This document shows, one piece after another, positions 40,284 to 44,070 of a stretch of 64,000 nucleotides of DNA. The DNA comes from Denitratisoma oestradiolicum. GTDB taxonomy: Bacteria; Pseudomonadota; Gammaproteobacteria; Burkholderiales; Rhodocyclaceae. A model generated the notes under the pieces. It was not told the origin of the DNA, searched no databases, and saw nothing but the letters and a program-made list of their open reading frames with translations. A program made the position numbers and the translations under genes. Location: NCBI RefSeq assembly GCF_902813185.1, contig NZ_LR778301.1, positions 4,104,564-4,168,563 of the forward strand, read 5' to 3'. Each line of letters begins with the position of its first letter. Positions within the stretch are counted from its first letter, which is position 1.

Positions 40284-40610
40284 TCACGCCGCCAGAGACT
40301 CTTCGACGATCTCGCAGTGGATCACGAAGCCCGTCAGGTAAGGCAGGCCCTTGGGGATGCCGTACTGTTTGCTGGTTGTTCGACCAATCGTCCAGCCCAT
40401 CCAACGCTGGGTGGCGGCTTTGATGGCGTCAGCCAAGGCGTCGCCGGCGTAGAGGCCGTTTTGCACGTCGTCAGCAAAGTGGCGCCCGTGGCGGCTGTCA
40501 AGAAAGGTGCGGACCGACTCGAGCGGCTGGCAGGTGGCGTCCGAGATCGCAGTCATGGCCAGCGGCCAGGCGGCTTCGGCCTGCTCGTTCATCGTGCCGT
40601 AAAAGCCCCA
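40284..40610 (-). pseudogene. 3' part of a small phage gene split by the RIT element
   Basis: Codons from WGFYGTMNEQAEAAW to the end (IVHCEIVEESLAA-type C-terminus) remain here. The first 14 codons are 3.4 kb away at 44029-44070. Removing 40615-44028 plus one GGCG copy gives an open 122-residue gene (NTTTQIPATQNDAWGFYG at the junction). A GTG inside the element end (40628) is in frame with this part, so a shortened protein might still be made. Function unknown. Confidence 0.8.
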
Positions 40611-40640
40611 GGCGTTTATGCGGAGCACCGCATAAACACC

Positions 40641-40668
40641 TTTATGTGGAGCGAATTGTTATGCGGAG
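40641..40668 (+). repeat. RIT left terminal inverted repeat
   Basis: 28 bp beginning TTTATGTGGAGC and ending TTATGCGGAG, an exact inverted match to 44001-44028. It includes the core TTATGCGGAG that recurs subterminally. Confidence 0.9.
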
Positions 40669-40728
40669 TCCGTGACAGCAGTGTCGCCGCTACAGCGTGC
40701 AGCCGATCGCGACACTCCGCATAACGTT

Positions 40729-41724
40729 TTAGCGCGAAACAGCTTGCAGCATTGCCATCAGCTTATCGGGGGCTCGGAATCGTCCGCGTTGCAACCCGGG
40801 TGGAGCACGGCTTGCCAGCGCTTCCAGTTTTTCCGTTGGATCAGCACGGAGATACATCTCGGTACTTTGCATGCTGGCATGTCCCAACCAGAGTGAGACC
40901 TTGCGAACATCACCCGTGGCCTGCAAGGTGTGCATGGCACATGTATGGCGCAGCACGTGCGGCGAGACCCGTTTTTCGGCGAGTAGTGGCTGTTGCTTTG
41001 CCGCATGAGAGACATGCTTGGCCAAGATGTACTCGAACCCGGATCTCGTCATGGCCCGTCCATTGGCGTTTAGGAACAATTCCGAATCGCCCGTCTGGCA
41101 GCGAACATTCAGCCAATCCTTGAGGACAGTGACGGTTTCCTTCCACAACGGCAGGACTCGCTCACGCCGACCCTTGCCCACGATGTGTATCGTCGCAGGC
41201 GTTCGCGGATCGAACTGATCGAGCCGAAGAGAAACCAGCTCTGCAACGCGCAGCCCACAGGCATAGGCCAGATGCAACATTGCCCGGTCTCGGATGCCAG
41301 ATTGCGAATGCGGGTCGGGTGAGTCGAGCAAAGCCTTCAGTTCCTCTCGCGTCAGATAGTCGATCAGCGTTTGATCGGTCTTTTTCATCGGGATAGCGTG
41401 AATCTGCCGCGACTGGTCGAGATAGGCAGGAAGCCGGTATTCGAGGTAACGGAAGAACGATTTGATGGCGGCCAAACGCGCGTTTCTGGTGCGTGCGCAG
41501 TTGCCTCGCTTGGCCTCTATGTGCTCAAGAAACGTCATGATCATTGAAGCATCGATTTGATCAAGGGTCAGTTGTGACGGTTTGCATTTCAGCCTGCCGG
41601 CTGCGAATTCCACCAGCAGCTGGAAGCTATAGGCGTACGCTTCACAGGTGTGCTGGCTGGCATTGCGTTCCGCAGGAAGATGCTCCCGGAGGAAACCGCT
41701 GAGATGGGTGGCGAGATCGTTCAT
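40729..41724 (-). CDS. RIT tyrosine recombinase, third gene
   Basis: This 331-residue recombinase has an N-terminal SAM-like core-binding domain (FLREHLPAERNASQHTCEAY) and a C-terminal catalytic domain. The conserved Arg is in GLRVAELVSLRLDQFD, the Lys in KGRRERVLPL, HxLRH in SPHVLRHTCAMH, and LGHASMQSTEMYLRAD carries the second His and the Tyr nucleophile. All catalytic residues are present. Its start overlaps the stop of the middle recombinase by 4 bp. Confidence 0.92.
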   Translation of the reverse strand: MNDLATHLSGFLREHLPAERNASQHTCEAYAYSFQLLVEFAAGRLKCKPSQLTLDQIDASMIMTFLEHIEAKRGNCARTRNARLAAIKSFFRYLEYRLPAYLDQSRQIHAIPMKKTDQTLIDYLTREELKALLDSPDPHSQSGIRDRAMLHLAYACGLRVAELVSLRLDQFDPRTPATIHIVGKGRRERVLPLWKETVTVLKDWLNVRCQTGDSELFLNANGRAMTRSGFEYILAKHVSHAAKQQPLLAEKRVSPHVLRHTCAMHTLQATGDVRKVSLWLGHASMQSTEMYLRADPTEKLEALASRAPPGLQRGRFRAPDKLMAMLQAVSR

Positions 41725-42653
41725 AGGTCTTGCTCCCTATGCAGAGTTTCTGCTGCTTCAGCAATTTGCCCAAGCAAGACCGGCGTTGCCTCAAGGTACC
41801 AGTAGGTGTCCGTTACTTTGGTGTGCCCAAGGTAGGTGCTCAATGCCGTCATATGGCGAGAAATGGCATTTCGGTCTCCACGGAATTGTTCCAGACTACG
41901 AACGGCCAGTGTGTGCCGAAGATCGTGGATGTGGGGAAGACCGCCATTTCGGGCCTGTTGCAGCCCCATAACAGTGACCAGACGAACGAACACATCCTTC
42001 ACACCCCTGTAGCCAGGCGCTTTCCCATTGATGCCGACAAACAAAGCATCAGTGCTCGTCGCAGTGCGTGTGCGCACCACGAGATACCGCTCCAATGCAG
42101 CGCGGACGGTGTCGTGCAGCGGAACCAACCGACTCTTGTTGAATTTCGTTTCCAGGATCATCAAGCCATCGACGGTAATGTCCTGCAACCGTAACCTCAA
42201 GGCTTCCGAGATGCGCAAGCCTGTCGCAGCCAGAAGTCCAAATAGCGTCGCAAACATCATCGGCCGGACAGAGCCAGTCGGTTTCAACTGACCGGCAGCT
42301 TCAATGAGTTTGGCAATCTCCTCTTGGCTGAAGATATAGGGCGGCGGTCGTCGATTCCTGGAGTTGCCAAACGCAGTACGTGGTGGCACCTGGTGCCGAT
42401 CATCTTCAGCCTGAAGTGCTTGCGCAAAGTGCCGGATGACGTTGAGACGCCGGTACCGCTGTGCTGAGGACGGTGCTTGGCCCGCCCACGTCAGCACTCG
42501 GTCGATACGAATGTGTTGATCACCATGCTTTTCGGCAGTAGCAACAAAGCCGCTCAGCATCAGCGATTCGTTTGCCATCTTGAAGCCAGCGCTCCGCCGT
42601 AGCTGGATATAGCGCTCCATGTCGGATCTCAACATGATGCACCTCCCGGCCAT
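41721..42653 (-). CDS. RIT tyrosine recombinase, second gene
   Basis: This 310-residue recombinase contains GLRISEALRLRLQDI (Arg), KFNKSRLVPL (Lys), HIHDLRHTLAVRSL (His-x-x-Arg) and LGHTKVTDTYWYL (His and Tyr). It overlaps both neighbours (25 bp upstream, 4 bp downstream), as is standard in RIT trios where all three proteins are needed together. Confidence 0.92.
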   Translation of the reverse strand: MAGRCIMLRSDMERYIQLRRSAGFKMANESLMLSGFVATAEKHGDQHIRIDRVLTWAGQAPSSAQRYRRLNVIRHFAQALQAEDDRHQVPPRTAFGNSRNRRPPPYIFSQEEIAKLIEAAGQLKPTGSVRPMMFATLFGLLAATGLRISEALRLRLQDITVDGLMILETKFNKSRLVPLHDTVRAALERYLVVRTRTATSTDALFVGINGKAPGYRGVKDVFVRLVTVMGLQQARNGGLPHIHDLRHTLAVRSLEQFRGDRNAISRHMTALSTYLGHTKVTDTYWYLEATPVLLGQIAEAAETLHREQDL

Positions 42654-43873
42654 GGCTGGGCGATCTCACGCAGCATCTGGACATCGACCTTGGCATAGTG
42701 CGCGGTGGTGTCGGGTGATTGATGCCGCAACACTGCTCCAACAGAATCGAGACTGGCCCCGGAGCGCAGCAAACTGGTAGCTGCAGAATGGCGTAACAAA
42801 TTTGCGCCTCGCGAAGGGGCATCTGCGATGCCTGCTCGCTCAAGGGCACGCTGAACAATCTGCGAGACAGCACAAGATTTCGCGAATGGCCGATAGGGAG
42901 CCTGCAGTCGCAAGAACATCCGATCGGAGTCAGCGAACGGTCTGACCTGATCGATGTACGTCAGCAGTACATCGCCGGCGTCTTGAGGCAGTGGCAGCCG
43001 CACTTCTCTACGCCCCTTGCCTCTGACCCGCAACGATCCCTGTGCCCACTCGATGTCGCAGAGGCGCATGGTAAGGATGTCGCCGCCACGGAGCCCAAGT
43101 CGGGCAAGGAGCAGAATAATGGCCTTGTCACGAATTCCGTGCGGTGTTCCCGTTTCACACGCTGCAATAACTCGCTCAATGTCCGAGTCGGACAAGTAGC
43201 GTGGCAGAGAGGACAACTGCCAGTGCGCGAAGACGGGTACGGCTTGATCCAGCCATGGTTTACATTCACCTCGTGCAATCAGAAATCTGAGATAGCCTCG
43301 CAGCGCTGTTCTCATCTTCGTAAGATAGGCACGGGAGCATTTCTGAGCCTCATCCAGTATGACCTGGCGAATGCACTGTGCGTTGTAGTCAGCAGGCTCG
43401 GTGCCGAGTGTTGGCATCATTCGCATAACCAGAAGGCCATGGGAATTGATGGTACGTTCGGAGACTCCACGGTGGACTCGAAGCCAGTTCTGGAATTCGG
43501 CAACTCGGGCGTCGACCTCTGGCGGCGAGAGTGCTGCGCCTGAGCGGACGATTCTGCCAACGGCCACGAAACGAAGGAATCGACGAATACGTGCCAGATA
43601 TCTTTGTTCAGGCCCTCCATGCCACCACCTCGCCGTACTCTGGCACTGATGGCAAGCAAACTGTTCAATGACAGTCTCGTTCACCTCGCTGAGGTCGATG
43701 CCTGCCTTATTCAGCCAGCACACAAAGTGGCTGACGGCGGACAGGTTCACTCTCAAGGTCTGGTGGGGCGAGTAACCCAGGGTTTTCAGGTGCTTCTCGA
43801 ATTGCTGTAACAACGGGTTCAGTGGGCCGGGGTCTGAACACGCCGCCGGTACGCTGTGTTTGGTCTTTGTCAT
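42629..43873 (-). CDS. RIT tyrosine recombinase, first gene
   Basis: This 414-residue recombinase is the largest of the trio. It has a long N-terminal DNA-binding region, then GLRGGDILTMRLCDIEW (Arg), KGRREVRLPL (Lys), ANLLRHSAATSLLRSG, and LRHQSPDTTAHYAKVD (His and Tyr). The first position of the HxxR box is Asn rather than His, a common substitution. GGAG lies 6 nt before ATG 43871-43873. Confidence 0.92.
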   Translation of the reverse strand: MTKTKHSVPAACSDPGPLNPLLQQFEKHLKTLGYSPHQTLRVNLSAVSHFVCWLNKAGIDLSEVNETVIEQFACHQCQSTARWWHGGPEQRYLARIRRFLRFVAVGRIVRSGAALSPPEVDARVAEFQNWLRVHRGVSERTINSHGLLVMRMMPTLGTEPADYNAQCIRQVILDEAQKCSRAYLTKMRTALRGYLRFLIARGECKPWLDQAVPVFAHWQLSSLPRYLSDSDIERVIAACETGTPHGIRDKAIILLLARLGLRGGDILTMRLCDIEWAQGSLRVRGKGRREVRLPLPQDAGDVLLTYIDQVRPFADSDRMFLRLQAPYRPFAKSCAVSQIVQRALERAGIADAPSRGANLLRHSAATSLLRSGASLDSVGAVLRHQSPDTTAHYAKVDVQMLREIAQPWPGGASC

Positions 43874-44000
43874 TTCGGTTCTCCTCTACGATGCCACCAT
43901 GGCATCAAGGAGAGACCGTAAATTATGCGGAGCACCAGACGCTGGAAATCAGCGCCAAATCACCCTTGGCAAAGACCATCGGCAGTCCCACGGCCCTGGG

Positions 44001-44028
44001 CTCCGCATAACAATTCGCTCCACATAAA
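44001..44028 (-). repeat. RIT right terminal inverted repeat
   Basis: Exact inverted copy of 40641-40668. It is followed directly by GGCG, which also borders the left end. Confidence 0.9.
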
Positions 44029-44070
44029 GGCGTCGTTCTGGGTGGCGGGGATTTGGGTGGTGGTGTTCAT
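44029..44070 (-). pseudogene. 5' part of the RIT-interrupted phage gene
   Basis: Fourteen codons (start ATG at 44068-44070) precede the RIT insertion. AGGAG lies about 7 nt upstream on the minus strand, and a promoter-like repeat (44105-44138) lies behind it. The gene continues at 40610. Confidence 0.75.

Follow-up and report, generated by a model that had tools for sequence, protein, structure and literature searches.

In a 64,000-nucleotide window of the Denitratisoma oestradiolicum genome (assembly GCF_902813185.1, contig NZ_LR778301.1, positions 4,104,564 to 4,168,563; coordinates below are counted from its first letter), a recombinase-in-trio (RIT) element splits a small phage gene, and we propose from its ends how such elements may move. 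Three tyrosine recombinase open reading frames (ORFs) follow one another on the minus strand with overlaps of 25 and 4 bp: ritA (42629-43873, 414 aa), ritB (41721-42653, 310 aa), and ritC (40729-41724, 331 aa). All three match Pfam Phage_integrase (PF00589) and appear Xer-like by NCBIfam, with scores under the curated cut-offs; RitC aligns to XerD (1a0p) over residues 15-302 (E 1.5e-27). RitB and RitC retain the first His of the HxxRH motif and RitA has Asn there; RitB and RitC perhaps perform the cutting. Among the relatives compared below (numbered L), N, S, or C is likewise found at this position of RitA in L146-L148, L150-L152, L155, L156, and L178, with the His kept in RitB and RitC, while for L149, L158, L179, and L180 the match of the search pattern may lie at another place. 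On a plasmid of Cupriavidus necator H16 (NC_005241, which we take to be pHG1), a protein has 42.6% identity to RitA. Homology extends in the same A-B-C order to the trios L153 and L154 of Dinoroseobacter shibae DFL12 (A 43%, B 45%, C 58%), a strain named as carrier of 2 identical RIT copies (PMC3414803); RitA proteins have been described as having 2 core-binding domains (PMC8138268). The initial annotation of this DNA had called the 3 overlapping recombinases a RIT, and the ORFs, the Pfam matches, and the homology to named RIT trios bear this out: by its trio, length, inverted repeats, and adjoining palindrome, it is an ordinary member of that family.

The unit measures 3,418 bp from its coordinates and has inverted repeats at both ends. 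The inverted arms at 40636-40671 and 43998-44033 are 94% complementary over 36 nt, 30 nt of them exactly; the repeats announced initially as 28 identical base pairs are thus present, with a different extent. At the ritC end, the terminal repeat (40642-40669, plus strand) consists of an arm TTATGTGGAGC, a 6-bp spacer GAATTG, and an arm TTATGCGGAGT; at the ritA end (44000-44027, minus strand), the arms read GCTCCGCATAA and GCTCCACATAA on the plus strand, again with a 6-bp spacer between them. Next to these lie 6-bp sequences that we call cores. The outer core on the ritA side, c1 (44028-44033, minus strand), and that on the ritC side, c3 (40610-40615, minus strand), both read AGGCGT on the plus strand, that is, ACGCCT in the direction of the gene; phage AcaML1 has a single copy of this 6-mer. 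The GGCG noted earlier at 40611-40614 and 44029-44032 is present at both junctions, but the A and T that bracket it recur as well, which makes the direct repeat 6 bp long rather than 4; these 2 letters had been assigned to the element. Its length equals the arm spacing in relatives (6 bp). Overlooked in the initial annotation was a second structure at the ritC end, a 20-bp near-palindrome TTATGCGGAGCACCGCATAA (40616-40635; 9/10 pairs), which resembles 2 arm-like sites back to back, followed by an extra, inverted core, c2 (40636-40641, ACACCT), with one mismatch against the outer core. The whole layout is therefore target, c1, the trio between its 2 arms, inverted c2, the 20-bp palindrome, c3, and target.

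The target is a gene on the minus strand whose 5′ part (44034-44070) makes up, with the core, its first 14 codons, and whose 3′ part lies at 40284-40609. When the flanks are brought together around a single copy of the repeat, a 122-residue ORF is restored, as first proposed. The joined protein is 88% identical over residues 3-122 to gp28 of AcaML1, which matches phrog_8020, a family of unknown function. As the initial annotation had suggested, we aligned homologues across the junction, using AcaML1 and, of the 281 viral contigs that contain a relative, the best 80: the gene is without an insert at the junction in 81/81, and the AcaML1 site reads AACGACGCCTGGGGC, with a single core and no palindrome. 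The alignment starts at residue 7 or earlier in 80 of the 81. In the exception, L051, it starts at residue 15, and 2 nt are missing at the junction, shifting the frame; the loss could be a scar of imprecise excision, or a sequencing error. Deletions of 2 or 6 nt have been reported at emptied sites of GInts (PMC5385486). Neither of the 2 findings named beforehand as contrary, empty sites lacking the single junction core or homologues lacking the first 14 codons, was made in this set. The junction 6-mer itself varies among the 81 (AAGCCT 25, ACGCCT 14, ATGCCT 10, AGTCGT 8, CCGATT 6, and ACACCT 5, with 11 rarer types in the remaining 13). By this comparison the element is inserted at one codon position of the phage gene, at a point that is exactly known, and the fixed target site first claimed stands.

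The further copies of the repeat that had been suggested for a search turned out to be in one place: the 29-bp repeat recurs twice more in the genome, around C1:31455-34844, where the sequence is identical over 3,414 bp and in the displayed 60-bp flanks. We rejected a second insertion since the match, between C1:1-55027 and window positions 9110-64000 (99.6% across 54.5 kb, with many small gaps, and 97.1% across the final 0.4 kb), reaches both contig ends; the start copy has 206 extra bases between the 2 matched pieces. An untrimmed circular overlap is the most likely reading of this match between the start and end of C1. The chromosome thus looks circular but untrimmed, with part of the window twice in the assembly. 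Apart from the overlap copy, no sequence within 2 mismatches of TTATGCGGAGCACCGCATAA occurs elsewhere in the genome. The viral contigs contain no exact copy of the 20-mer palindrome and none of the element end, and none of 8 candidate RitA relatives found there by a pattern method was confirmed; we found neither near DNA relatives in plasmids nor distant ones in phages. A scan of genome contigs for RitA gave 2 loci. One, L019, is a distant recombinase and was set aside. The other, L018 (NZ_JADEXG010000132.1), is a whole contig of 3,394 bp that is identical inside the repeats, with its flanks cut at the cores. Because its ritA-side flank, AGTCG|T, equals the natural core of 8/81 phage homologues, this copy probably sits in the same phage gene, the contig ending there. 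Its assembly is cyanobacterial (Vasconcelosia minhoensis LEGE 07310), and the copy perhaps comes from a co-cultured bacterium.

For the site plan at the ends, we tried 62 trios or partial trios from plasmid records and genomes, including the window and L018; partial trios L138, L170, and L175, weak matches L020-L049, and the second trios in L133, L134, and L143-L145 were omitted. Terminal repeats were found in 53 of the 62, 3 of which are cut at contig ends, leaving 50 that could be scored. With a threshold of at least 9/10 pairs over 20 bp, a palindrome stands at exactly one end in 37/50 trios and by this count at both ends in none, compared with 79 of 7,400 positions drawn at random from these loci that reach 9/10; the weaker end in these 37 trios scores between 5 and 7, so a score of 7/10 alone is at control level. 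A 6-bp core flanks the palindrome on each side, one toward the terminal repeat and one outside it. The 11-bp arms recur at a lag of 17 bp with 7.24/11 positions identical, and at other lags from 8 to 30 with at most 3.51 (45 loci, a set that keeps 4 with poorly placed arms, L132a, L133, L134, and L140). Joining the outer ends of the window's element would give a circle junction CATAA-AGGCGT-TTATG, which has a dif-like geometry of inverted 11-bp arms around 6 bp (PMC10132070). What is newly resolved by these comparisons, then, are the 11-bp arms with 6-bp spacers, the extra inverted core, and the 20-bp palindrome at one end, an architecture that is common to most relatives examined. Several counts weigh against its generality: 9/62 trios had no terminal repeat (one of these, L136, had one in a wider range), 13/50 scored below 9/10 at both ends, and the loci are related, so their counts are not independent. 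By eye, 6 of the 13 have TTATG/CATAA-like ends rightly placed (L139, L160, L162, L166, L185b, and L186b), in L132a and L133 the 20-bp spacer is imperfect, and no palindrome could be placed in L134, L141, L148, and L167. In L140 (G057:C425), a palindrome apparently lies at each end, just inside the boundary used by the script.

Many of the relatives occupy other genes, assigned from the record annotation or otherwise from flank sequence: IS66 tnpB at D-[FM]-R-K codons, and strawberry-notch genes of Sphingomonad plasmids. Relative to the trio, the palindrome takes either end. Among the IS66 loci, 12/15 are scorable and divide evenly between the ritA end (6) and the ritC end (6), the others being L148, which lacks a palindrome and differs in sequence on one side, and the partial trios L176 and L177. 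Among the strawberry-notch loci, 16/18 are scorable, with the palindrome at the ritA end in 6 and at the ritC end in 10 (no terminal repeat was found in L153 and L154; L160, L162, L203, and L204 rest on 7-8/10 pairs). A palindrome fixed at the ritC end was thus rejected. Relative to the target gene, its side is constant in 12/12 IS66 tnpB and 16/16 strawberry-notch insertions, which are partly related by descent. The joined target of L203 is matched over all 406 bases by 25/28 plasmid records, and the other 3 are occupied sites (YBL2, CAP-1, and DC-6). Some loci are compound: in L159, L183, L185, L186, and L188, 2 RIT families adjoin in one strawberry-notch region, each with its own palindrome, and in L132-L134 (G100) and L142-L145 (G446), RITs are apparently nested in genes of other RIT trios, the ritA-side flank of L132 resembling a recombinase gene at H-x-L-R-H codons. 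Where the IS66 flank meets the core, L152 (near 3798) has one C more than L151, possibly an imprecise junction. L205 and L206, on 2 plasmids, are copies of a larger RIT that are identical for more than 6.5 kb and carry 2 passengers, an IS256 transposase gene and a hypothetical gene.

We then compared the cores at 31 representative loci, hand-picked after the core table had been seen. The outer cores c1 and c3 share 4.87/6 positions (1.93 between target groups; 0/20,000 permutations reach the c1-c3 value), and c1 and c2 share 4.26/6 (1.99 between target groups). The outer cores are equal in 14/31 loci, in 7 of which, the window included, c2 differs, and unequal in 17/31. The direct repeat, first read as arising at insertion, is real as an observation; an Xer-type exchange across a 6-bp overlap accounts for it as well as a copied target does, and the mismatch of outer cores in 17/31 loci fits overlap exchange better than strict target-site duplication.

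Based on these findings, we propose the following scheme. The recombinases would act in an Xer-like manner on sites of 11-6-11 bp. Recombination between c1 and c3, which are in direct orientation, would release a 3,418-bp circle containing the trio and the palindrome, with one core remaining in the gene. In this circle, 2 crossover sites would flank the palindrome, and either could be used for integration. Via the junction core, the element would keep its palindrome end and its inner core; via c2, the palindrome would shift to the opposite end of the trio, the old junction core would become the inner core, and the outer cores would come from the target and from the donor's inner core. The inner core may thus preserve a trace of an earlier host site. 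A RIT inserted in a codon of the phage gene, excised as a circle by c1 × c3, and integrated through either core beside the palindrome is the best explanation we can offer and, in our judgment, somewhat more probable than not. That RITs have a transposition mode of their own, with 2 dif-like sites around a palindrome and with use of the inner site flipping the end and storing the core of the previous host, we put forward more tentatively, at slightly under an even chance.

Evidence for the scheme comes from 5 same-strain pairs of 100% identical elements on 2 plasmids each (L181/L182, L187/L188, L203/L204, L205/L206, and L151/L152): in 5/5, the two members have the palindrome at opposite ends, and the inner core of each recurs as an outer core of the other. 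For instance, L203 has c1 CAGGAA, c2 GATATA, and c3 CAGGAA, and L204 has GATATA, CAGGAA, and CACGTA; L188 has GACATA, TATGTA, and GATCGC, and L187 has TATGTA, GATCGC, and CACGTA. The cores are distinctive in 3 pairs, L181/L182, L187/L188, and L203/L204. As background, we took 112 pairs of strawberry-notch loci that belong to different strain groups: both cores match in 3 of these pairs and the flip is present as well in 1; the within-group pairs L181/L183, L182/L183, L186/L187, and L186/L188 were counted in neither set. The window's inner core, ACACCT, is the natural 6-mer at the corresponding point of the gene in 5/81 phages (L055, L058, L063, L075, and L110), and it may record an earlier phage host, perhaps one whose gene encodes NDT-W rather than NDA-W.

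Several observations weigh against this scheme. The 5 pairs were selected as same-strain plasmid pairs, and L205/L206 and L151/L152 are hardly informative, their cores being mostly equal. When all pairs whose elements are at least 99% identical were listed, the 100% identical L132a/L133 (G100) had no flip, L134 (G100) could not be scored, and L142 (G446) was flipped relative to L143 while having the same palindrome end as L144 and L145, all with nearly equal cores. Across strains and different targets, the whole rule was obeyed by 0/5 pairs: L158/L179 has no flip and 1 of 2 cores matching, L158/L180 and L179/L180 are flipped with 1 of 2 cores matching, L182/L183 is flipped with no core match, and L186/L188 has both cores matching without a flip. 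After this full list, an obligatory flip at each jump was rejected; among these related sequences the flip is common, not obligatory. Where both members occupy one target, the flip is present in L186/L187 and L146/L147 and absent in L181/L183. In L132a and L133, the inner core is TCGCCA in both by eye, as use of the same junction site predicts. The window offers just one independent insertion complete with both flanks, and the inner core ACACCT may equally have arisen from ACGCCT by a point mutation, so that the window alone is no proof of the core rule. Finally, we infer the circle, the strand exchange, and the movement from sequence comparison only.

The core pattern of the flipped pairs would also arise if c1 first recombined with the inverted c2, inverting the trio with exchange of cores, and the unit then moved by c1 × c3 through the same junction. 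This inversion followed by ordinary transposition, which would yield the same pattern and so counts against our scheme, is unlikely in our view, though the most serious competitor. Both orientations of the trio do exist at one site, in the isomers L146/L147 and L143/L144 (flanks 94-99.9% identical over matched stretches), and L186/L188, with its cores exchanged and no flip, is easier to explain with an extra inversion. It demands, however, an inversion plus core exchange in each of the 5 flipped pairs, and inversion of L146 into L147 cannot make TCGTAA at c2, although the reverse direction with conversion can. An improbable alternative is a copy-out/copy-in mechanism instead of cut-and-paste, as proposed for SE elements and Tn554, which would leave a donor 6-mer at one junction: the unequal outer cores are what it predicts, and a single strain can hold more than one identical element, but both outer cores are equal in 14/31 loci, the window among them, and the SE model in the Discussion of PMC10214605 has nothing that corresponds to the inner core or the palindrome. 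That the element ends at its terminal repeats and the palindrome is a target hot spot or a passive scar of an earlier insertion is very improbable, for despite the constant side in IS66 and strawberry-notch targets, 81 phage and 25 plasmid empty sites lack a palindrome insert (for which reason the palindrome as part of the target was rejected), 0/93 plasmid records matched by an IS66 core-palindrome-core query cover 80% of it, so that no solo palindrome footprint was seen among them, and the same palindrome accompanies identical elements in targets only about 70-75% alike.

Several known systems come close to this element. RITs as described by Van Houdt in 2012 (PMC3414803) likewise have overlapping ritA-ritB-ritC genes in about 3.5 kb, with an inverted repeat and a palindrome at the ends, and insert within genes of other mobile elements; RITs have also been reported in radC and in an IS66 tnpA (PMC2864759). 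Compared with the passages of PMC3414803, our loci place the palindrome at either end and resolve the 6-bp cores, the arms, and the empty sites. In the sections concerned, mobility is described as not demonstrated (PMC3414803), and target specificity, empty site, and movement of RITs are listed as not tested (PMC10214605); our empty sites and identical copies point to mobility. The Xer/dif system is alike in its Xer-like enzymes and in its site, 2 inverted 11-bp arms around a 6-bp spacer with CATAA-N6-TTATG at the centre in the examples given (PMC10132070). A RIT, in contrast, itself encodes 3 recombinases, has as targets gene codons that lack evident arms, and carries a palindrome between 2 sites. 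SE elements, GInts, and Tn554 share with it several tyrosine recombinases, a 6-bp exchange region (staggered cuts of 6 nt for GInts, PMC5385486), and a donor 6-mer left behind (PMC10214605, PMC5385486), but have other gene sets, such as Tfp and Srap in SEs, and a palindromic third site is not met in the Discussion of PMC10214605 or the relevant passages of PMC5385486. As for accessory genes of the SE or Tn554 kind (Tfp, Srap, and TnpC), the trio fills nearly the whole unit here, no search with SE or Tn554 proteins having been made.

The site plan supplies defined crossover points, exact empty sites, and a circle prediction that PCR can test, making RIT movement directly testable, and it gives, lineage by lineage, the target codons, which lie in a phage gene whose function is unknown, in IS66 tnpB, and in strawberry-notch plasmid genes. 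It also suggests a role for the RIT palindrome, which passages of the RIT literature note and leave unexplained. If the proposal is true, the inner core would be a readable trace of the element's last home. Our comparison suggests that RIT elements jump through six-letter, Xer-like sites arranged around a short palindrome, and that they can carry with them a trace of where they last resided.

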